From a virus, in the IMG/VR virus record IMGVR_UViG_3300022858_000061, positions 1-29,158 of that record: DNA of 29,158 bases; one strand, written 5' to 3'. The translations under genes and the position numbers were made by a program. Each line of letters begins with the position of its first letter. Position 1 is the first letter of the stretch. Under the pieces are notes generated by a model, which ran no database searches, had not been told where the DNA came from, and worked only from the letters and a program-made list of their open reading frames with translations. Positions 716 to 20,454 of the stretch are shown here, one piece after another.

Positions 716-862
716 ATGAAAAGAATTATTAACTGGTTACTAGGTAGATGTAGATTCTACCCCATGTGTAAGAACAGAGATAATTTAAATGCTTGTTGTA
801 TTGGTTATGAGAAGTCTAGTTATTGTGGATATGCAAGGGAACAATACAAAAATGATAAATAG
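716..862 (+). CDS. Small cysteine-rich protein
   Basis: A 48-residue ORF starting MKRIINWLLGRC with five cysteines (RC, MC, ACC, YC) and ending EQYKNDK. The cysteine spacing and the Trp/Leu-rich N-terminus look like selected coding sequence, perhaps a metal-binding or disulfide microprotein. It overlaps the following HNH gene by 11 nt and sits right after the pseudoknot leader, so it may be the gene that this leader controls. No family recognised. Confidence 0.5.
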   Translation: MKRIINWLLGRCRFYPMCKNRDNLNACCIGYEKSSYCGYAREQYKNDK

Positions 863-1268
863 AAAAAAGATAAATAATAGAATAAAAGAATACAGAAAGA
901 CACATTCTAGAAAAGAAGAATATAAGAAGAGATATGTAGAAAATAAATTATTATATAAAAAACATGTTGACAAACGTAATAATTTAATTAAGAAATATGG
1001 TGGTACACATACTTTAGGAGAATGGAATGATTTAAAAATAAAATATAATTATACTTGTCCATGCTGTAATACAAGAGAGCCAGATATTATATTAACTGTA
1101 GATCATATTGTATCAGTAAGTGTTTGGGGTGAATGGATAAAAGAAAATAAACATATAAAGTATATGTATGATGATATAAAAAACATACAACCATTGTGCT
1201 TAAAATGTAATCTTTCTAAACAAAACAAAGTAATAACTTACAGAGACAAATGTTCAAACTTGAAATAA
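852..1268 (+). CDS. HNH endonuclease, homing type
   Basis: A 138-residue basic protein. Residues 1-50 are lysine-rich and helical, probably DNA-contacting. The HNH module follows: CPCC (69-72), the catalytic DH pair (84-85), an Asn-containing stretch and CLKC (116-119), with the cysteines binding a structural zinc. I start at ATG 852 (MINRKK) because the upstream in-frame ATG at 789 would read backwards through the 716-862 gene. It overlaps the gene before it by 11 nt and the gene after it by 19 nt, so it is tightly coupled. Unlike the HNH genes at 2519 and 13709 it has no visible promoter of its own. Probably a selfish homing endonuclease, though a packaging-associated role cannot be excluded. 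Confidence 0.75.
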   Translation: MINRKKINNRIKEYRKTHSRKEEYKKRYVENKLLYKKHVDKRNNLIKKYGGTHTLGEWNDLKIKYNYTCPCCNTREPDIILTVDHIVSVSVWGEWIKENKHIKYMYDDIKNIQPLCLKCNLSKQNKVITYRDKCSNLK

Positions 1269-2457: not shown

Positions 2458-2487
2458 ATGAAAATACTCAATCTTTATGATATTTGA
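2458..2487 (+). pseudogene. Orphaned original 5' end of the C5 methyltransferase gene
   Basis: ATG 2458, only 4 nt after the HTH stop, opens MKILNLYDI and then a stop. MKILNLY matches MRILNAY, the start of the methyltransferase at 2998, at five of seven residues, but the codons differ (AAA/CGT, ATA/ATC, CTC/TTA, CTT/GCT). The match breaks exactly where the HNH cassette begins (TTGACT at 2484). The best reading is that this is the ancestral gene start, left behind when the HNH cassette entered the gene. Confidence 0.6.
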
Positions 2488-2510
2488 CTTTATAACATAG
2501 ATTTGATAAT
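2484..2510 (+). promoter_or_regulatory. Promoter of HNH cassette
   Basis: TTGACT (2484-2489), 15 bp spacer, GATAAT (2505-2510), followed by ATT. The predicted start of transcription is at or next to the HNH ATG (2519), so the mRNA would be nearly leaderless. The layout is the same as at 13653-13679 upstream of the other HNH cassette and differs from the main phage promoters (TTGACA, 16-17 bp). Confidence 0.5.
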
Positions 2511-2518
2511 ATTAATAT

Positions 2519-3010
2519 ATGGAAAGAAATAAAAAAGGACAATTTATAAAAGGAACAAACGGTGAAACTTATGATGGTTTTGGTATTTGGTATGACAAAA
2601 AAGGATATGCAAATATTTGGATAAATATGAAATCTATTAAATTACATATTTATATATGGGAAAAAGCTAATGGAGAAAAACTAAAAGGATATGATATACA
2701 TCATAAAGATTTTAATAAAAGAAATTATAAATTATCTAATTTAGAATTATTAAATAAGTCTGACCATTTAAAAATACATGCTGGTTGGATAAGAAAAAAT
2801 AACAAATGGATATTAAAGCCATGTAAAGATTGTAAAAAAATATTGCCCTTGGATAAATTTTATCAAAGGAAAGGATTAACACCATCAAATATTTGTATTA
2901 AATGTAGTTTAATTATGTGGAAGAAAAAAAGAAAAGATAAAAAGTGGGTTGAAGAAAAAAAGAAATATTTAAGAAACTATTATAAAAATAAAAAAATATG
3001 CGTATCTTAA
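2519..3010 (+). CDS. HNH homing endonuclease with zinc finger
   Basis: A 163-residue, very lysine-rich protein. Residues 1-50 hold a small beta-rich module with KLHIYIWEKANG, then the HNH_3-type core DIHHKDFNKRNYKLSNLE (catalytic HH 61-62, N74) and H83. A C-terminal zinc finger (C102/C105 and C126/C129) probably binds DNA. This is the standard free-standing phage homing endonuclease plan. It has its own promoter, sits between an orphaned methyltransferase 5' end and the intact methyltransferase, and overlaps the latter by 13 nt. Base composition is even more A-rich than its neighbours, consistent with separate mobility. Confidence 0.85.
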   Translation: MERNKKGQFIKGTNGETYDGFGIWYDKKGYANIWINMKSIKLHIYIWEKANGEKLKGYDIHHKDFNKRNYKLSNLELLNKSDHLKIHAGWIRKNNKWILKPCKDCKKILPLDKFYQRKGLTPSNICIKCSLIMWKKKRKDKKWVEEKKKYLRNYYKNKKICVS

Positions 3011-3615
3011 ATGCTTATTCAGGGATAGGCGGTAATAGAAAGCCCTGGGGAAACAAATATCAAGTGACTGCTATTGAAAATGATCCAGATATAGCAAAAA
3101 TATATAGTGATCTATTTCCAAAAGATAAAGTCATTGTTGCAGACGCTCATCAATACATATTAGAACACTACAAGGAGTTTGATTTTATTTGGAGTAGCCC
3201 ACCTTGCCAAAGTCACTCAAGTTTTAGAAAAAATATTTGTGTTAGGTATCGTGGTACAGAACCGGTTTATCCAGATATGACACTGTATCAAGAGATATTA
3301 TTCCTACAGCATCACGCTGACTGTAAGTGGGTTGTAGAAAATGTAAAACCATATTATAAGACATTGATTGGACCATCAGTCATATTGCAAAGGCATTTAT
3401 TCTGGTCAAACTTTGAAATACCAATTAGAGAATTCAAGAAAGACAATATCAGAACAGCACAAATACCAGACTTGCAAGAGAAATATGGGTTTGATTTGTC
3501 AAATTATAAACTGAAAAACAAAAGGCAAGTTTTAAGAAATTGTGTTGAGCCAGAAGTAGGAAAGCATGTGTTAGATTGTGCTATGGGAAAACAGAAACAA
3601 AAGAATTTATTCTAA
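2998..3615 (+). CDS. DNA (cytosine-5) methyltransferase, compact phage type
   Basis: A 205-residue class I methyltransferase. Motif I for AdoMet binding is AYSGIGGN (6-13), motif IV with the catalytic cysteine is SPPCQS (C70), and motif VI is ENV (114-116). It methylates carbon 5 of cytosine, probably protecting phage DNA from host restriction. It is short for the family (usually 300 or more), with a reduced target-recognition region and no obvious motif VIII QxRxR. Start is ATG 2998. A second, diverged copy of the first seven codons lies upstream of the HNH gene at 2458. No partner endonuclease is evident, so it looks like an orphan methylase. Confidence 0.85.
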   Translation: MRILNAYSGIGGNRKPWGNKYQVTAIENDPDIAKIYSDLFPKDKVIVADAHQYILEHYKEFDFIWSSPPCQSHSSFRKNICVRYRGTEPVYPDMTLYQEILFLQHHADCKWVVENVKPYYKTLIGPSVILQRHLFWSNFEIPIREFKKDNIRTAQIPDLQEKYGFDLSNYKLKNKRQVLRNCVEPEVGKHVLDCAMGKQKQKNLF

Positions 3616-8716: not shown

Positions 8717-9283
8717 ATGAGTTATTATAGTGAACAATTAACAGACTTTATTGCTAGGCTTGAAATTAAAGCAGATAGTGTTCTTGATATTGGTTCTAGT
8801 CAAAAAAAAGTATTTGATAGAACAAAAGGTTGGGATGTAAAAGAATATATAACATTAGATTTAGAAGTTCCTCATGAGGGAGAAAAATCAGATATAGTGT
8901 GGGATATAAATGAGAAGAGTGGCATTAGAAAAGATTTATATGAGACTTTTGACATAGCATTCTGCCTAGAAGTAATGGAATATATATACGATCCTGTTAA
9001 TGCTTTAAGTATTGTATGTGGGTTTTTAAGGAAAGGTGGAGAACTATACATATCTTTCCCTTTTGTTTATTGTATCCATAAGCCTGTTAAGAATGATTAT
9101 CTACGATATACAAGGATGGGAGCTATTAAATTACTAGAAAATGCTGGATTTGAGATAGAAATGATTATGGATAGAGTAGCAAAAGACCCTGAAAAGTTAA
9201 GAGATTTCTATAAGTCAGATGGAATGCACGTTGGAGGAGATTCAAATGTAACAGGATTTATAATTAAAGCTATAAAAAGATGA
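8717..9283 (+). CDS. SAM-dependent class I methyltransferase
   Basis: A 188-residue Rossmann methyltransferase. AdoMet motif I is DSVLDIGSSQ (20-29), motif II is around YITLDLEV, and FDIAFCLEVMEYI matches the motif IV region, followed by FLRKGGELYISFPF. This is the Methyltransf_11-like plan. The substrate in this context is most likely a sugar or glycan. Ends in an ATGA overlap with the next glycosyltransferase. Confidence 0.75.
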   Translation: MSYYSEQLTDFIARLEIKADSVLDIGSSQKKVFDRTKGWDVKEYITLDLEVPHEGEKSDIVWDINEKSGIRKDLYETFDIAFCLEVMEYIYDPVNALSIVCGFLRKGGELYISFPFVYCIHKPVKNDYLRYTRMGAIKLLENAGFEIEMIMDRVAKDPEKLRDFYKSDGMHVGGDSNVTGFIIKAIKR

Positions 9284-10161
9284 AATTAAGCATACACACA
9301 ACAATAACTAATCCAGACTACTGGCAATACGCATGGAAAGAATCTATTGAATCATTCTTGGCATTGGCTGATGAAGTAATAGTAATTTATGGTTCTGAAA
9401 CAGACTTGAGGTTATTACAGAACATAGATGTACCACATGGAAAGGAATTAAAATGGGCTTATCTTGAATGGCCTTATAATTTTAGTTGGGATGAGATAAG
9501 TAGGCACAATAATCTAGGCTATTCACTATGTACTGGTGATTGGGTAATGAAGACTGATTGTGATTATGTATTCCATGAGAACGATATTAAGAATATGAGA
9601 ACACAGCTCGAGAAGTATTTAGAAGAGGGTTGGTTAGCATGTTCTTTTATGAAATATACAATAATGAATAAAGATAGAGCTTATCAGAAGGTTCATCTAC
9701 CATTCATTTTGAATAAGAAGATGTTAGGAGATACAGTAGGCTATGGCCCATCAACAACAGAGAATACAGCTTGGGGATACCCTATTCATAGAGACGAGTT
9801 TGATGATGAGTTAGGATTACCTAAAGGAAGGTCAATAGATCCTAGTGTAGTTAGATCAACTGGTGTAGATTGCTGGAATTATGATAACTTCTTCAAGGAT
9901 AAGAAGATAACAGGTGAACAGTTCTTGAGATTCAGTCATTCTAGAGATAAAGCAGGGTTTGGTGCAACTTGGGGTAAGACTAAAGAAGAAGCTTTAAAGA
10001 AGTTTTGTGAGATGTCTGCTAGTAGATTAAAGAAGACTGGAGCTACTTATAAGCCTTTATCATTAGACGATCATCCTAAATTTGTAAGAGATAAGGTAAA
10101 GAATATGACAGAAGATCAGATGGGGTATAACAACTGGAATAATTTTGAAGGAATACTATGA
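9280..10161 (+). CDS. Glycosyltransferase, GT-A fold (GT2-like)
   Basis: A 293-residue protein with a GT-A nucleotide-binding start (SIHTTITNPDYWQYAWKESI), and the metal-binding DxD as KTDCDYVF (D93, D95) after GDWV. The C-terminal half has a conserved-looking GTTW/FSHSRDK region. Probably transfers a sugar from a nucleotide donor. Overlaps the genes on both sides by 4 nt. Confidence 0.75.
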   Translation: MKLSIHTTITNPDYWQYAWKESIESFLALADEVIVIYGSETDLRLLQNIDVPHGKELKWAYLEWPYNFSWDEISRHNNLGYSLCTGDWVMKTDCDYVFHENDIKNMRTQLEKYLEEGWLACSFMKYTIMNKDRAYQKVHLPFILNKKMLGDTVGYGPSTTENTAWGYPIHRDEFDDELGLPKGRSIDPSVVRSTGVDCWNYDNFFKDKKITGEQFLRFSHSRDKAGFGATWGKTKEEALKKFCEMSASRLKKTGATYKPLSLDDHPKFVRDKVKNMTEDQMGYNNWNNFEGIL

Positions 10162-10442: not shown

Positions 10443-10725
10443 TAAAAAAAAGATGACAAATAACATAAGCAAAATACTTGAGGAGTTTGATAAGCTAATA
10501 GCTGATATTGGTTATAGAGCTTTGCATGGTAAAAAATACGATTCAGAGAAGGAAACTAAAGACTTCATAAAACAATCAATAGAGAAATGCCTTGATGAGA
10601 TGTTATATAAGTTGGATAAATTTGAAGAGGAGACAAACAATAACTGTCAAAGAATAAATATAAACCCATCTTTTGATGAGACAAAAGAATTTCTTGAAGA
10701 AAAAATCAATAAGATAAAAGAATAA
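10435..10725 (+). CDS. Unknown helical protein
   Basis: A 96-residue charged, helical protein. An alternative start is ATG 10453 (MTNNISK). It overlaps the previous gene by 8 nt. No recognisable family. Confidence 0.5.
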   Translation: MINKKKMTNNISKILEEFDKLIADIGYRALHGKKYDSEKETKDFIKQSIEKCLDEMLYKLDKFEEETNNNCQRININPSFDETKEFLEEKINKIKE

Positions 10726-10726
10726 T

Positions 10727-10786
10727 ATGGGAGAAATAACAAATACAGCAACATGGGAGAAAACAGGTGGCGAATATGCTATTGAT
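10727..10786 (+). repeat. 60-nt direct repeat, copy A (N-terminal module)
   Basis: The first 20 codons of this gene match the first 20 codons of the gene at 11392 in 57 of 60 nt, after which all similarity stops abruptly. This suggests a recent transfer of a 5' module between two neighbouring methyltransferase genes. Confidence 0.9.
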
Positions 10787-11392
10787 TATATGAAAAGATA
10801 TAATTTAGTTTCGTACGACGAATATATAGAATCACAACTTGCTAGAGTTAAATCAAAGCAAGGTACTTTTTTAGAACAACCAGATAGATTAGAAATGTTT
10901 AAGAAAATAGCAAACACAGCAGGAGAAAAATTACCAAAACTAAAAAGGATAGTTTGTATGGGAGTAAAAAATGGTGCTGAATGTTTTGAATTTAAAAAGA
11001 ATAGATTTTATTGCGAAGCAGAAATACATGGAGTTGAATTAAGCGAATTAGTTAAGACTGCTAAAGGAGATGATAAGCTAAAGTTTCATCAATTAGACTT
11101 TAATGAATTACCTGATGAGTGGGAGGATAAGTTTGACTTTCTTTATAGCAATAGTTTAGATCATGCTTACTTGTTAAAAGATACACTAGACGAATGGTAT
11201 AGAATAATGCACTCAAGGGGATATATGCTTCTAACCTTAAGTAAAGGATTGATTACAGAATGTGATATATACTCTTTTGATGAGAAAGACATTGATAAGT
11301 CATTAGATAAAGATAAGTTTGATTTAGTTAAGCTATGGAAAGAGAAGAATCAAGAAAACAGCTTTAATATATTATTAAAAATAAAAAAGTAA
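10727..11392 (+). CDS. Methyltransferase-like protein with shared N-terminal tag
   Basis: A 221-residue protein. The first 20 residues (MGEITNTATWEKTGGEYAID) are nearly identical to those of the next gene, whereas the rest is unrelated. The body looks like a class I methyltransferase: RIVCMGVKNGAECFEF as a divergent AdoMet loop, DFLYSNSLDHAY near motif IV, and RIMHSRGYMLLTLSKG near motif V. The glycine-rich loop is atypical, so activity is uncertain. It ends in a TAATG overlap with the next gene. Confidence 0.6.
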   Translation: MGEITNTATWEKTGGEYAIDYMKRYNLVSYDEYIESQLARVKSKQGTFLEQPDRLEMFKKIANTAGEKLPKLKRIVCMGVKNGAECFEFKKNRFYCEAEIHGVELSELVKTAKGDDKLKFHQLDFNELPDEWEDKFDFLYSNSLDHAYLLKDTLDEWYRIMHSRGYMLLTLSKGLITECDIYSFDEKDIDKSLDKDKFDLVKLWKEKNQENSFNILLKIKK

Positions 11393-11451
11393 TGGGAAAA
11401 ATAACAAACACAGAAACATGGGAGAAAACAGGTGGCGAATATGCTATTGAT
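11392..11451 (+). repeat. 60-nt direct repeat, copy B (N-terminal module)
   Basis: Second copy of the 5' module described at 10727-10786, with three substitutions (in codons 3, 6 and 8), two of which change the residue. The last 12 codons are identical, including third positions. Confidence 0.9.
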
Positions 11452-12045: not shown

Positions 12046-13635
12046 ATGCGTATTCTAATAACAAATGACGTGGAAGGTTGGGCTATTGGAAACCTAACTG
12101 ATGCCATTATCAAGCACAACAAGAATAGGTTTAATTTTATTAAAGTTCCAGTACATCCTAGGGGAGTTGGAGAATCATTAATTCCTTTAAAAGATGCGAT
12201 AGATGTTAAAGGAGTTGATCTTTGGCATGGACAATATTGGAACAGTTCGCTAAAGATGTTTGATTACTTCCCTCATTTAAGAAAGCAGACAAGCCTATTA
12301 ACTCATCACAACCATCATTGTTTAAACAAGGACACTTGGGAAGACTTTAACTCTTTGAATGAAATGACACAATGGGGAGTAGATAAGTTAAGTAAGATAC
12401 ACGAAAATGTGTTTAAAATACCTCATGGAATTGATTTAGATAGGTTTGCTTACATTGATGAGCTAACAGAAAACAAGAATATAGGGTATATCGGTAGAGT
12501 AGTACCTTGGAAATGCCTAAAAGAGATATGTGAAGCAGCTAATAAGTTCGAATATAATGTAGTTGGATCAGGATATATTGATGATGTTAAGTATTGGGAA
12601 GAGATACCAAGGGATAGATTAGAGTTTAATGGTGGTACTTGCAGGGCTGAAATGGCTTCAGCATCGTTTAAAGACGACTTATATGAAGATATGATGTGTT
12701 TTGTCATGTATTCTACTGGTGAAAAAGAATCAGGAACATTACCTTTACTAGAAGCAATGGCGAGTGGAGTTCCTATTTTAGCTACAGAACAGGGTATGGC
12801 TAGAGATTTGATTAAAGATGGAGTGAATGGAGTATTCTTTAATGAAGAAAACTTTGAAGAGAAGCTTCAACTTGTCATGGAAGATAAGAAGTTAAGAGAA
12901 AAGATTAGAAAGAATGCTTGGGAGACTATAAAGAACTATAGTGAATCAAAGATGGCTAGAGATTATGCAAAGGTTTATTACAAGACTGTATTCAAAGATA
13001 ATCCTGTTATCTCTGTTATTATCCCAACATTTGATAGAGCAGAAAAGCTATATGACATAATTGAATCTATTGATAGTCAAACTTATCCTGCTAAAGAGAT
13101 TATTATAGTTGAAGATGGTGATGATGGAGGTAAGACAAAGAAAGTATGTGAAGAGATAAAGAAACACCTTAAGACACCAGTTATTTATATGAATACTGGC
13201 AATGCTAATGACTACTATGGATTGGCTCAAGCTAGGAACATGGGAGCATGTGAAGCACTAGGTGAGGTACTTCTATTTTTAGATGATAGATATGCACTTG
13301 AACCTGATGCACTAGAACATATATCTAAATGTAAGAATAACCACTTTGACTTTGGTGTAAAGGTTATTAAGGGTAAAGAATCTACAAAGAAAGCATTTAT
13401 TGAGAACTTTGCATGGATAAGAAAGAAAGACTTCTTCAAAGCTGGAATGTTTAATGAAAGACTTAATATGTATGGTGGTTTAAGCCAAGAAACTAGAACT
13501 AGATTTAATGCTCAAGGATTCAAAATGAACCAAGATAAGAGTGTAAAATGTAAAGAGATATTAAGTTCAAGAAAAAATAAGAATAAGAGTGAGATATGGA
13601 AAGCTAAATTTTTATTAAGCAAAATATATGAATAG
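12046..13635 (+). CDS. Bifunctional glycosyltransferase (GT4 + GT2 fusion)
   Basis: A 529-residue protein with two catalytic domains. Residues 1 to about 320 are a GT-B (GT4) domain: N-terminal MRILITNDVEGWAIGNL, IPHGIDLDRF, IGYIGRVVPWK and the E-x7-E motif in KESGTLPLLEAMASG. From about residue 322 a GT-A (GT2) domain begins with VISVIIPTFDRAEK, IIIVEDGDDGG, and LLFLDDRYALEPD as the metal-binding acidic motif. The fusion probably adds two sugars in sequence to the same acceptor. An unrelated short start fragment precedes it at 11988. Confidence 0.85.
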   Translation: MRILITNDVEGWAIGNLTDAIIKHNKNRFNFIKVPVHPRGVGESLIPLKDAIDVKGVDLWHGQYWNSSLKMFDYFPHLRKQTSLLTHHNHHCLNKDTWEDFNSLNEMTQWGVDKLSKIHENVFKIPHGIDLDRFAYIDELTENKNIGYIGRVVPWKCLKEICEAANKFEYNVVGSGYIDDVKYWEEIPRDRLEFNGGTCRAEMASASFKDDLYEDMMCFVMYSTGEKESGTLPLLEAMASGVPILATEQGMARDLIKDGVNGVFFNEENFEEKLQLVMEDKKLREKIRKNAWETIKNYSESKMARDYAKVYYKTVFKDNPVISVIIPTFDRAEKLYDIIESIDSQTYPAKEIIIVEDGDDGGKTKKVCEEIKKHLKTPVIYMNTGNANDYYGLAQARNMGACEALGEVLLFLDDRYALEPDALEHISKCKNNHFDFGVKVIKGKESTKKAFIENFAWIRKKDFFKAGMFNERLNMYGGLSQETRTRFNAQGFKMNQDKSVKCKEILSSRKNKNKSEIWKAKFLLSKIYE

Positions 13636-13660
13636 AAAACTAAAAGTATATGTTGACTAG
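13628..13660 (+). pseudogene. Orphaned original 5' end of the next glycosyltransferase gene
   Basis: ATG 13628 overlaps the preceding stop, a typical operon start, and encodes MNRKLKVYVD then stop. NRKLKVYV matches KRKLRVFV encoded at 14199-14222, which leads into VTTWH, a usual first strand of a glycosyltransferase. Codons differ at nearly every position. The match breaks where the HNH cassette promoter begins (TTGACT, 13653). Confidence 0.55.
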
Positions 13661-13679
13661 TAAAGAATATTAGTATAAT
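13653..13679 (+). promoter_or_regulatory. Promoter of HNH cassette
   Basis: TTGACT (13653-13658), 15 bp spacer, TATAAT (13674-13679), then ATT. Same -35 variant, same spacer length and same KATAATATT -10 context as the promoter of the HNH gene at 2519. It lets the HNH gene be expressed on its own inside the operon. Confidence 0.55.
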
Positions 13680-13708
13680 ATTTAGGTATAACTATTAATA
13701 ATAAAATT

Positions 13709-14185
13709 ATGCCTAAAACAATTTATAGAGTTCCAATAGGAACAAAAATTACAGAGAAAGAAACTGGTTATATAAGAATTAAAATAAAACCTGGATTATG
13801 GAGAAGAGAACATTGTATAATAATGGAAAAAAAGATCGGAAGAAAGTTAATGAAAGGAGAACAAGTACACCACATTAACAGAGTAAAAGATGATAATAGA
13901 CTTGTTAATCTATCGCTATGTACAAATTCCAGTCATCATAAATTAGAGTATAGTGGTTCAGGTTTAGAGAAATACAATAAAGAAAAACATGTCAAAAACA
14001 AAAAACAATTTAAGGTTTGTAAGTGTTGTAAAAAACAATTCTCTAAATTTGACAAGGAGTATAAATCAAGCGATAAAATATGGGAAAAAACAAAGTATTG
14101 TAGCATTAAGTGTAGAAACCTTGATAGTAAAAATTGGAATCATTTATCAATAAAATTTAATAATTATGAAAAAAAGAAAGGATAG
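13709..14185 (+). CDS. HNH homing endonuclease with zinc finger
   Basis: A 158-residue basic protein. Residues 1-35 have a beta-rich segment (GYIRIKIKPGLW), then the HNH_3 core GEQVHHINRVKDDNRLVNLSLCTNSSHH with catalytic HH and Asn. A C-terminal zinc finger (CKCC ... YCSIKC) follows. Same domain plan as the 2519 gene, though the sequences are clearly different. It stands alone inside the glycosyltransferase operon and separates an orphaned gene start (13628) from the glycosyltransferase body (14245). Confidence 0.85.
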   Translation: MPKTIYRVPIGTKITEKETGYIRIKIKPGLWRREHCIIMEKKIGRKLMKGEQVHHINRVKDDNRLVNLSLCTNSSHHKLEYSGSGLEKYNKEKHVKNKKQFKVCKCCKKQFSKFDKEYKSSDKIWEKTKYCSIKCRNLDSKNWNHLSIKFNNYEKKKG

Positions 14186-14237
14186 CCATGTGGGAGCAAA
14201 GCGCAAACTTCGCGTTTTTGTAACCACATGGCACTGA
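14166..14237 (+). pseudogene. Out-of-frame N-terminus of the downstream glycosyltransferase
   Basis: Reading from ATG 14166 (or GTG 14190) gives KRKLRVFVTTWH and then TGA at 14235. The glycosyltransferase body, from ATG 14245, is in the +1 frame. Dropping one T at 14235 would join TTWH to DHVMHYYDLFNAL as one continuous, glycosyltransferase-like N-terminus. So the gene appears frameshifted here, or the base is an assembly error. This stretch is unusually rich in CGC/CGT arginine codons, whereas AGA is the norm in neighbouring genes. Confidence 0.5.
14185..14232 (+). terminator. Hairpin at right end of HNH cassette, terminator-like core
   Basis: A perfect 9-bp inverted repeat (GCCATGTGG 14185-14193 and CCACATGGC 14224-14232) encloses a second stem (AAAGCGC 14198-14204 with GCGTTTT 14212-14218) followed by T-rich sequence. 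The core could end HNH transcription. Its right arm is also the TTWH coding segment of the glycosyltransferase. Confidence 0.55.
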
Positions 14238-14244
14238 TCACGTT

Positions 14245-15234
14245 ATGCACTACTACGATTTGTTTAATGCCTTAAAGGAATATGCAGACTTCTATGTTTG
14301 TTATAACCACGCTAGAGAATGGAAAAGCAATAACTTCTTATCAGCTAGACCTATACCAGAAAATGCTACATTTGTTTGTGGCTATGAGCCTGGGATTTAT
14401 GATTTTGCTATTCTTAATGTAGATCAACAAATAACAAATCCATTATTAGGTAAGACACATGTTTTTAAGGAATTGTTTGATACAGTACAAGATATTCCAA
14501 AGGTAGTTATTAATCATGCTACACCTGTATATCCAGAACATCTGAAAGCACATGGTATGAATTTTAATGATGCAGAAAATGAATGTAAAAGAATAATTAA
14601 AGAATTATTAGGAGATACGCCAATGATTACTAATAGTCATACTGCATCATCTGAAAGTGAATGGGGATGGGGTTATCCTATTATCCACGGAATGAATAAA
14701 GAAGAATATTTTGATTTACCAAAAGAACCTCGTGCTTTTACAGCTTTAAGTCCAGCAGGTTGTGATAAATATTATAATAGAGATGTAATGGATAGAGTTA
14801 TTTCAATAATGAGAGATGAACATGGCAGAACTGTATTATGGGCTAAAAAGAATGTTCAGACAGATAAATCTTTTGAATGTTATCGTGATTATTTAGGAAG
14901 GTCTTTAATCTATCTTGATACTTCAATTAGGACACCAATGAATAGAGCCAGAACAGAAGCAATGTTATCTGGATGTTGTGTTGTTCAAGTTAATGGTTGC
15001 CACGATCAAGATAAGTTTTTTAAAGATAGAGAGAATTGTATAATTGTTCCTAATAATCCTTTTGAAATTGCTGAAATACTAGAAGATTTATTAGAGAATA
15101 AATATAAAGAGTGTTTAGCTATCGGACAAGCAGGAAAGAAAATGGCCCAAGAAACATTTACTAGAGAAAGGTTTGCACAAGATTGGCTTAAATTTATTAA
15201 AGAAGTATTAAAAATAGATTATGAAAAGATTTAA
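14245..15234 (+). CDS. Glycosyltransferase, GT-B fold, N-terminally frameshifted
   Basis: A 329-residue GT-B-like enzyme. The N-terminal part (YYDLFNALKEYADFYVCYN) lacks the first beta strand, which is encoded just upstream in another frame. The C-terminal donor domain has the typical late segment RTPMNRARTEAMLSGCCVVQ, then FEIAEILEDLLEN and a final helix pair. ATG 14245 lies 8 nt after the TGA that closes the upstream frame, so re-initiation could make a shortened protein. Possibly inactive if the missing strand is essential. Acceptor unknown. Confidence 0.7.
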   Translation: MHYYDLFNALKEYADFYVCYNHAREWKSNNFLSARPIPENATFVCGYEPGIYDFAILNVDQQITNPLLGKTHVFKELFDTVQDIPKVVINHATPVYPEHLKAHGMNFNDAENECKRIIKELLGDTPMITNSHTASSESEWGWGYPIIHGMNKEEYFDLPKEPRAFTALSPAGCDKYYNRDVMDRVISIMRDEHGRTVLWAKKNVQTDKSFECYRDYLGRSLIYLDTSIRTPMNRARTEAMLSGCCVVQVNGCHDQDKFFKDRENCIIVPNNPFEIAEILEDLLENKYKECLAIGQAGKKMAQETFTRERFAQDWLKFIKEVLKIDYEKI

Positions 15235-16958: not shown

Positions 16959-17095
16959 AAGATTTCCACGCTTATTTAGATGTTGTATTAAGGGATATTC
17001 CTTATGGTAAACTTGAAATTGATATAGAAGATGGATTACCTAAAGAAATGATTACCATTATCAGATCAAAGAGAATGGATCTAAAAAGAAAATAG
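16922..17095 (+). CDS. Unknown 57-residue protein
   Basis: A short ORF beginning MGFEKKSREET, with a helix then LRDIPYGKLEIDIEDGLP and a basic tail ending KRMDLKRK. It overlaps the glycosyltransferase 3' end by 37 nt and ends 1 nt before the promoter at 17097. The composition looks coding. No family recognised. Confidence 0.5.
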   Translation: MGFEKKSREETVEDFHAYLDVVLRDIPYGKLEIDIEDGLPKEMITIIRSKRMDLKRK

Positions 17096-17096
17096 C

Positions 17097-17125
17097 TTGA
17101 CAAGTGTAAAAAAAATAATTACAAT
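17097..17125 (+). promoter_or_regulatory. Late promoter for the portal gene
   Basis: TTGACA (17097-17102), 17 bp, TACAAT (17120-17125). The sequence CTTGACAAGTGTAAA is shared exactly with the promoter at 19482, and the downstream leader is also similar. Predicted start near 17132. It drives the head and tail genes separately from the sugar island. Confidence 0.75.
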
Positions 17126-17147
17126 ATAACTAAAGATAATTCGCTGC

Positions 17148-17179
17148 TGATGAGGAATTACATAATTAACTCCTCATTA
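17148..17179 (+). promoter_or_regulatory. Leader hairpin before the portal start
   Basis: TGATGAGGA (17148-17156) pairs with TCCTCATTA (17171-17179), 9 bp with one G-U. It ends 3 nt before the preferred portal ATG (17183). No U-tract follows. It could gate translation or serve as an attenuator half; the paralogous leader at 19538 has a real terminator at the same place. Confidence 0.5.
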
Positions 17180-19408: not shown

Positions 19409-19480
19409 ATGCTAAAATACCAAGAGGAAAACAAACATGAAATAGAATTAGATTGGTACGAACATACACCTAACGCATAA
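19409..19480 (+). CDS. Possible 23-residue ORF in the portal-protease gap
   Basis: MLKYQEENKHEIELDWYEHTPNA, written here in part, is a short plausible peptide with an acidic amphipathic look. A different-frame ORF (19387-19440) overlaps it. It sits between the portal stop and the promoter at 19482. Real translation is unproven. Confidence 0.25.
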   Translation: MLKYQEENKHEIELDWYEHTPNA

Positions 19481-19481
19481 C

Positions 19482-19510
19482 TTGACAAGTGTAAATAAAT
19501 TCAATAGAAT
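19482..19510 (+). promoter_or_regulatory. Late promoter for the protease-capsid genes
   Basis: TTGACA (19482-19487), 17 bp, TAGAAT (19505-19510), followed by ATAAGTATAA. Same CTTGACAAGTGTAAA start as the 17097 promoter. A second promoter here would boost the abundant capsid mRNA. It is followed within 60 nt by a terminator-like structure. Confidence 0.75.
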
Positions 19511-19537
19511 ATAAGTATAATATAATTGGCTGCGGAA

Positions 19538-19570
19538 CGAGCAATTCTATACTAGATTTGCCCGTTTTTT
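19538..19570 (+). terminator. Attenuator-like terminator before the prohead protease
   Basis: CGAGCAA (19538-19544) pairs with TTGCCCG (19558-19564) with one mismatch, and six T follow (19565-19570). A competing hairpin, AATTG (19524-19528) with CAATT (19542-19546), would use part of the left arm and break the terminator. This is the classic switch layout between terminator and antiterminator, 18 nt before the protease ATG. Confidence 0.6.
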
Positions 19571-19587
19571 ATTATTAATAAATAGAT

Positions 19588-20454
19588 ATGAAAAAAAAGC
19601 AGTACATAAAGGGATTTGTACAAAAAATAGAAGGAGACATAGTTTCTGCCGTAGCCACAACTGATAGTGTCGATAGAGATAACGAAACTGTTAGCATTGA
19701 TGGATGGGATTTAAAAAGTTTTAATGATAATCCTATTTTATTATGGGCGCATAGATCAGCAGAACCACCTATTGGTAAAATTACTAATATTTGGAGAGAA
19801 GGTAATGCCTTAAAATTTGATGCAGTATTTGCCAAAGGAGATGTGTTTGTTGATAGGTTAGTGAACCTAGTAAAACAAGGCATTTTAAAGGCTTTTTCAG
19901 TAGGTTTTATAGCTAAAGACATGGATTCAGATGGTAATAGTTTGGAACAAGAGCTATTGGAAATATCACTTGTACCAGTACCTGCTAATCAAGATGCTAG
20001 GATGATGTCTGCTTATAAATCATTTTGTAAAGATTTTAGTGATAGAATAGATATTGAAGAACCTAAAGAAGAACCTAAAGAAGAAGTTAAATTAGAAGAT
20101 AAACCAGAAGAAAAAGAGGAAGTTAAAGAGGAAGTTAAAGAGGAAGAACCAAAGGAAGAAGTTAAAGAAGAACCAAAAGAGGAGGTTAAAGAAGAAATTA
20201 AAATGACTGAAAACAAGAAAAATAGATTAAGATTATTCGTAGATAATTGTGAGGAGATGGCTAAAGAGGGAAAAGAAATACTAAAAATTGCTAAATCTGT
20301 TCCGACAGAAAAGGTAAATTTAGATACAAAGGTAGCCGATAAACCACAAGACCCACAAGTCAAAATGGTTAAGGTAATGAAACGATTGAGTAAAGAGGTA
20401 GAGATAGCTCTTTCTCAAGCTAAAAATTATAATAGAATGGAGGTGAAAAAATAA
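19588..20454 (+). CDS. HK97-type prohead protease (S78) with acidic C-terminal tail
   Basis: A 288-residue protein. The protease domain (1 to about 140) has the triad: H55 in LLWAHRS, S104 in KAFSVGF and E125 in LLEISLVPVPAN. It cleaves the capsid delta domain during maturation. Residues about 155-205 are a long Glu/Lys/Pro repeat (KEEPKEEVKEE type), followed by a helical, more basic end. The tail is about as long as the protease domain and probably acts as scaffold. Followed 2 nt later by the capsid gene. Confidence 0.88.
   Translation: MKKKQYIKGFVQKIEGDIVSAVATTDSVDRDNETVSIDGWDLKSFNDNPILLWAHRSAEPPIGKITNIWREGNALKFDAVFAKGDVFVDRLVNLVKQGILKAFSVGFIAKDMDSDGNSLEQELLEISLVPVPANQDARMMSAYKSFCKDFSDRIDIEEPKEEPKEEVKLEDKPEEKEEVKEEVKEEEPKEEVKEEPKEEVKEEIKMTENKKNRLRLFVDNCEEMAKEGKEILKIAKSVPTEKVNLDTKVADKPQDPQVKMVKVMKRLSKEVEIALSQAKNYNRMEVKK

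Follow-up and report, generated by a model that had tools for sequence, protein, structure and literature searches.

In a 29,158-nucleotide stretch of viral DNA (IMG/VR virus record IMGVR_UViG_3300022858_000061, positions 1 to 29,158; hereafter the window), a gene for a predicted HNH_3 homing-type endonuclease lies between two starts of one glycosyltransferase (GT) gene, and we consider it highly probable that this is a homing cassette free of any intron, by which the end of the invaded gene is replaced. The anatomy of the cassette, comprising a promoter-like element, an HNH_3 gene and a diverged 5' end of the target gene, recurs in independent phages and genes, and in the ssb genes of cultured phages the cassette is mobile as a unit. 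Cleavage by the nuclease, its target and the protection of that target by the replacement end are what we infer from these observations.

Two starts of one glycosyltransferase gene

The preliminary description of this locus recognized a short GT start, an HNH gene and a second GT start, and this order is borne out by the sequence. The gene preceding the GT (12046-13635, plus strand; C-terminal end ...ATATATGAATAG) terminates with TAG at 13633-13635, and this stop is overlapped by ATG 13628, which opens a stub of the native first codons, MNRKLKVYVD* (13628..13660, plus strand; stop at 13658-13660). The native part of the stub ends at approximately 13652-13654, the insertion point. The left edge of the cassette is occupied by a promoter-like element, TTGACT-17-TAATAT (13653..13681, plus strand), revealed by a consensus scan that by itself does not rise above chance; however, the element recurs at the left edge of the other cassette in the window (2484) and, by eye, in Escherichia phage HC6 and in contig L290, both discussed below. 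The HNH_3 open reading frame (ORF) follows (13709..14185, plus strand; 158 amino acids; Pfam PF13392, E=3.8e-10, with matches to PHROG HNH endonuclease families). In our protein alignment A1, residues H54, H55 and N67 are invariant, corresponding to the catalytic H-H...N of HNH_3, and zinc-ribbon-like cysteines are present at the C-terminus. Next come a Shine-Dalgarno-like AAAGGA and a GTG start at 14190 (14177..14192, plus strand), which would serve the replacement GT 5' end, (M)GAKRKLRVFVTTWH, encoded at 14190-14234 and closed by TGA (14190..14237, plus strand); the second start as originally noticed, KRKLRVFVTTWH, occupies 14199-14234 within it.

Relatives of the GT (L005-L011), identified by a degenerate-pattern scan of IMG/VR, begin with KKKYKIFTTPWHTMHFYDLFNAL, QRKIKIFTTPWHTMHFYDLFNAL or KKKYKVFTTNWHVMHFYDLFNAL, and since they start alike, both copies in the window are genuine GT N-termini. 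When all 1128 ATG starts in the window, on either strand, are compared, the stub is the best match to the N-termini of the GT family, and none of the 1127 others equals its score, either against the family or against the resumed copy. The significance rests on the anchoring to start codons and on the homologues, as an unanchored match of this strength (score 27) is expected by chance. As originally noted, the two starts are written mostly in different codons, including four of the five that specify the same residue, with 14 of 24 nucleotides identical. At 50%, the G+C content of the resumed start exceeds that of the GT body (31%) and that of the HNH region (25%), and one of its codons, CGC, occurs in none of the 11 window ORFs counted. 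By these measures it looks foreign or recoded.

A part of the preliminary description that fails is that the GT body follows the second start directly. The resumed frame, whether opened at GTG 14190 or later, stops at TGA 14235-14237, while the body (14245..15234, plus strand; GT-B, GT4-like; weak Pfam match, 55-58% identity to its closest relatives over approximately 335 residues) begins with ATG 14245 in another frame. The two are out of frame because of an insert at the right junction, TGATCAC (14235..14241, plus strand), which sits between TGGCAC and GTTATG, is not found in the GT relatives and adds exactly 7 bases compared to them. The identical insert is present in contig L001, from another IMG/VR record, with 6 mismatches in 11,361 bases, none of them at the insert. 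Given this TGA and the change of frame between the second start and the body, expression of the window GT is uncertain. In the AlphaFold model of one relative, L008 (predicted local distance difference test 84.5), assigned to the GT-B fold by Foldseek, the first strand spans residues 5-10; by this model, a product initiated at ATG 14245 would be without its first beta strand, and the window GT is probably impaired, being truncated or inactive. Rescue could come from reinitiation 7 nucleotides past the TGA, or from a ribosomal stop-hop, from one CAC codon to the other, of a class known from synthetic constructs (passages in PMC5009743). The sequence CAC-TGA-T-CAC is present at 14232-14241; a gene-60-like bypass would call for matched take-off and landing codons, for a stop following the take-off codon and for efficient bypassing. 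We consider it improbable that TGATCAC is decoded rather than being a lesion, with ribosomes hopping from CAC 14232 over TGAT to CAC 14239 to produce the family sequence ...TTWHVMHYYDLF..., and the insert also protecting the repaired site from the nuclease.

Recurrence and mobility in other phages

The clearest before-and-after comparison is provided by the ssb genes of cultured phages. Escherichia phage HC6 was reached by tblastn with the HNH protein (37% identity in alignment A1), and it displays the stub ATGGCACGCGGCGTAAATAAAGTAATT (MARGVNKVI), a promoter-like AAAAGTTGACTT...TATATT, an HNH gene and an ssb starting with MSSIGINKCIILGRVGNDPEVKYS. The gene is split in this manner, ATGGCACGCGGCGTAAATAAAGTAATT / TTGACT promoter and HNH gene / ATGTCTTCGATTGGTATTAATAAGTGCATAATCCTTGGTCGAGTTGG..., in phages HC6, ZCEC08, BUCT541 and KlebP_265, and the architecture is common to the coliphage HC6 and two Klebsiella phages. 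In close relatives devoid of the HNH gene (ST1UNAM, ST46, Bas79, Akira) ssb is uninterrupted and reads MA(T)RGVNK(V/C)II(V/L)GTLGNDPEVK. The unit, which begins at the left junction and takes in the promoter, the HNH gene and the replacement N-terminus, measures 597 bp, and in ZCEC08, BUCT541 and KlebP_265 it is identical to that of HC6 at 596, 592 and 589 of 597 positions, respectively (98.7-99.8%), whereas the flanks on both sides are only 78-92% identical between the carriers. The cassette is thus present or absent at one site and more alike than its surroundings, and this pattern marks a unit that has moved recently and that carries the replacement gene end as its right-hand part.

Another example is a cassette at a methyltransferase gene of the window itself. 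Its stub, MKILNLYDI* (2458..2487, plus strand), is the best independent match to the family N-termini among the 1128 ATG starts, with only the resumed methyltransferase scoring better. It is followed by a scanned promoter-like TTGACT-17-TAATAT (2484..2512, plus strand), an HNH_3 endonuclease gene (2519..3010, plus strand; 163 amino acids; PF13392, E=1.5e-11) and a methyltransferase (2998..3615, plus strand; PF00145) that carries the replacement N-terminus MRILNAYSGIGG and overlaps the 3' end of the HNH gene by 13 nucleotides; end replacement would here (2458-3615) have worked cleanly. The unrelated contig L290 harbors a homing endonuclease gene (HEG) whose product is 69% identical to that of the window gene, inserted at the matching codon of a methyltransferase gene of that family, in the order stub ATGAAGACATTAAACCTTTATGC... 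(MKTLNLYA), TTGACA-17-TATAAT, HNH gene and resumed MKVLNCYCGLGG (MKVLNCYCG). This shared insertion codon would be at most an indirect pointer to site-specific cleavage of the uninvaded allele. Of 80 methyltransferase relatives, 76 have the motif LNLY. L290 has LNCY and both near-identical copies of the window locus have LNAY, these three being HEG-bearing; the HEG-less L333 has LNLC. The altered motifs would fit replacement ends that change the cut site, with two independent cases only. The third HNH gene of the window (789-1268, PF01844) and an HNH-like ORF (1786-2157) are not accompanied by a stub.

As to how general the arrangement is, we surveyed 194 HNH_3 loci listed from two IMG/VR pattern scans, a pattern-selected and not a random sample. 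In the final test (within-contig null, complexity filter, both orientations) diverged duplicated translated gene ends flanked the nuclease gene at score >= 45 in 10 of the loci listed, versus 0.71 expected, and at score >= 50 in 8, versus 0.36 expected. An across-contig null (11 versus 0.75 among the loci listed) proved too optimistic due to base composition, and the within-contig null without the complexity filter yielded 11 versus 3.1. Upon inspection at least nine loci were convincing. Five are N-terminal, L111 and L122 (both thyX-like, with different break points), L208, L230 and L047 (nuclease antisense), and four are C-terminal, L115 (dropped by the complexity filter), L064, L114 (antisense, methyltransferase-like) and L183 (antisense). 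As the cases of the window and HC6 score only 27-29 in the unanchored test, by which short stubs are missed, the frequency in the survey is a lower bound; by this measure end replacement is a minority mode, detectable in about 5% of the HNH_3 loci listed. Of the earlier proposal of a general mode of insertion into the first 25 nucleotides of genes, the core is upheld by recurrence in independent phages and genes and by the enrichment in the survey, and the site is wider than supposed, the thyX stub of L122 being approximately 57 nucleotides long and L115, L064, L114 and L183 being mirror images at 3' ends.

In L122 (186-849, minus strand) the HNH gene shares an uninterrupted reading frame with the thyX stub (MNNTVELLGWYGGDKEHAMS/KRKNSWTSEEDAF...), and production of the nuclease may now rely on the native start of thyX. 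A number of other candidates were rejected as replaced ends: L252 for low complexity, L242 as not interpretable, L077 and L177 as probably due to chance, and L094 because its repeat is common to the C-terminus of the neighboring frame, possibly representing tandem nuclease domains (the C-terminus of its HNH frame, 8932-9532, minus strand, repeats that of the upstream ORF, DPLSG[EQ]IVY..VQ.EIY). In L028 and L189, also rejected, the repeats look like the ends of tRNA genes, which hints at homing close to tRNA arrays.

Proposed mechanism and alternatives

We propose that the nuclease would recognize the conserved end of an uninvaded gene and would cut or nick there, and that repair on a cassette-bearing genome would copy in the promoter, the nuclease gene and the substitute end. 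The cassette lies within the conserved first codons of the target, where the native start remains as a dead stub, and the substitute end would keep the gene open and, its sequence being changed, would not be cut again. At the window GT, homing may have left the 7-nucleotide TGATCAC as a scar between the replacement end and the body.

Several points weigh against this reading. The cleavage activity and the target of the nuclease are predictions; most HNH_3 genes are without the pattern, and the survey sample was selected by pattern; the supposed rescue is out of frame in the window GT itself; and tandem GT genes adjoin the site, recombination between which could in principle produce a stub. In addition, no sister of the window phage with an empty site was found in a search of viral contigs, where near-identical copies were the only matches, and the pre-insertion allele is therefore deduced from GT relatives of approximately 58% identity. 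By comparison with these, the uninterrupted GT would read approximately ...RKLKVYVTTWHVMHYYDLFNAL, and the empty allele would have ...AAAGTATATGTT joined directly to the stretch encoding TTWHVMHYY. In the phage collection neither DNA relatives of the window nor protein relatives of its GT were found. One contig, L268 (IMG/VR 3300005939_000484), matches 5,519 bases of the window at 100% identity and ends at window position 13564, 64 nucleotides before the stub, where there could be an assembly break at a population-polymorphic site.

The closest rival, whose anatomy overlaps with that of an end-replacing cassette and which we regard as possible, if doubtful, is a free-standing HEG that sat 5' of the gene in a divergent donor and spread by co-conversion, the replacement end then being the donor's own start, with no dedicated rescue. 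The high G+C content and foreign codons of the resumed GT end would agree with this, HEGs of T4 as well as lactococcal HEGs are known to co-convert their flanks (passages in PMC12724721 and PMC2988022), and the unlike replacement ends at one site, in L290 and in the window methyltransferase, fit different donors. However, the replacement end of ssb travels with the HEG as a sharp-edged 597-bp unit, replacement of gene ends occurs in either orientation and extends to 3' ends, and the HEG-bearing methyltransferases alter a conserved target codon. Co-conversion may be the origin of such cassettes. The stub could also be the start of a second, since deleted GT, with the HEG originally between paralogues, as opposed to an insertion into a single GT starting with MNRKLKVYVTTWHVMHYYDLF. 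Several GT genes are indeed found in tandem here, and the 5' ends of two adjacent methyltransferase-like genes (10727 and 11392) are almost the same, but the same architecture is found at thyX and methyltransferase loci and at ssb, for which the empty-site relatives possess a single gene with an intact start, making this explanation highly improbable.

A self-splicing intron or intein carrying the HNH gene, with the stub spliced to the body, deserves mention, since HNH_3 genes are common in phage group I introns and the insertion is within a coding sequence. This, too, can hardly be entertained: no Rfam intron match was obtained even at E<=10; outside the duplicated ends only approximately 50 nucleotides precede and 4 follow the HNH ORF; the resumed gene repeats the stub, so that splicing would duplicate or drop residues; and the ssb gene downstream forms a full ORF that opens at a start codon of its own. 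For an intein, the stop of the stub already ends at 13660, and the HNH ORF is bounded by a separate start and stop. As to a chance likeness of short peptides, unanchored matches scoring approximately 27 are common, but no other start of the window scores as high against the GT family when anchored, and the independent cases involve much longer duplications. Chance, already doubted in the preliminary description on the strength of two cases, is next to impossible at the GT, and for the class it is refuted by the ssb comparison and the survey.

Relation to known systems and neighboring features

The closest described analogue of an end-replacing phage cassette is found in the mobile ORFs of fungal mitochondria (Allomyces atp6; Glomus atp6, atp9, cox2 and nad3), which carry foreign copies of the severed C-terminus and whose mobility is attributed to the endonuclease (PMC3630166). 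In both, an endonuclease ORF comes with a second version of the gene end that was cut off, diverged yet protein-conserving, and the native remnant is retained, as seen for the window GT, the methyltransferase, ssb and the survey loci. The fungal ends are C-terminal and often fused in frame, and the endonuclease named for atp6 is of the LAGLIDADG type, whereas the phage cases involve HNH_3, are mostly N-terminal with C-terminal mirror images, and possess a promoter-like element of their own (window, HC6, L290). By analogy, the phage cassettes would work like the fungal ones without being members of the same group.

Among phages, ShiLan possesses an intronless HNH insertion in a methylase gene, which is reported to open with 11 residues similar to the 11 that follow the insertion site, the start of the insert being nearer to uninvaded genes than to invaded ones (PMC11855218). 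This is what end replacement would predict; the ShiLan insert differs in being open in frame with the methylase throughout, and its authors weighed intron and intein signatures and left the similarity unexplained (PMC11855218). The seg and mob genes of T4 are likewise free-standing endonuclease genes near or in their targets, but the passages on them place HEG insertion sites in intergenic regions (PMC2988022). In T4 gene 39 is split into two genes, 39/60, and the short insert of gene 60, bypassed by ribosomes, is thought to protect against the nuclease (passages in PMC5009743), a possible parallel to CAC-TGAT-CAC. A replacement gene end is not described in these passages on T4 HEGs and gene 60 (PMC2988022, PMC5009743), nor are replacement ends described in the relevant parts of phage HEG reviews and surveys (PMC2988022, PMC10448857, PMC12724721). 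Provisionally, then, end-replacing cassettes are undescribed in phages as a class, subscription literature lying outside the search. The HNH_3 catalytic domain is common to the GT-cassette protein and I-HmuI (1u3e), its top solved structure by profile, if with a weak match (E=0.011). The gene for I-HmuI lies in a group I intron; the window cassette is without one.

If the end-replacement reading is correct, a selfish nuclease gene can live in a conserved gene with neither an intron nor an intein by bringing a substitute for the piece it destroys, and such genes can spread, often with the invaded gene kept intact. This would be a natural counterpart of engineered cleave-and-rescue, described earlier mainly in fungal mitochondria as far as the literature found shows. 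It would explain abrupt differences at the N-terminus between close relatives in ssb, thyX and DNA methyltransferases, as well as orphan start codons before HNH genes, and possibly the similarity left unexplained in ShiLan. It also calls for caution in annotation, where a stub or an exchanged gene end next to an HNH gene would be a homing scar, and it is directly testable in cultured coliphages, by comparing HC6 with Bas79-type relatives.

Two further repeats are found in the window. The 5' ends of the methyltransferase-like neighbors at 10727 and 11392 are 89% identical at the DNA level (10711-10786 and 11378-11451; MGEITNTATWEKTGGEYAIDY and MGKITNTETWEKTGGEYAIDL) and divergent beyond. A repeat of approximately 70 nucleotides, 80% identical, lies 5' of the portal gene (17092-17159) and 5' of the ORF at 19588 (19477-19546), possibly representing a shared regulatory region.

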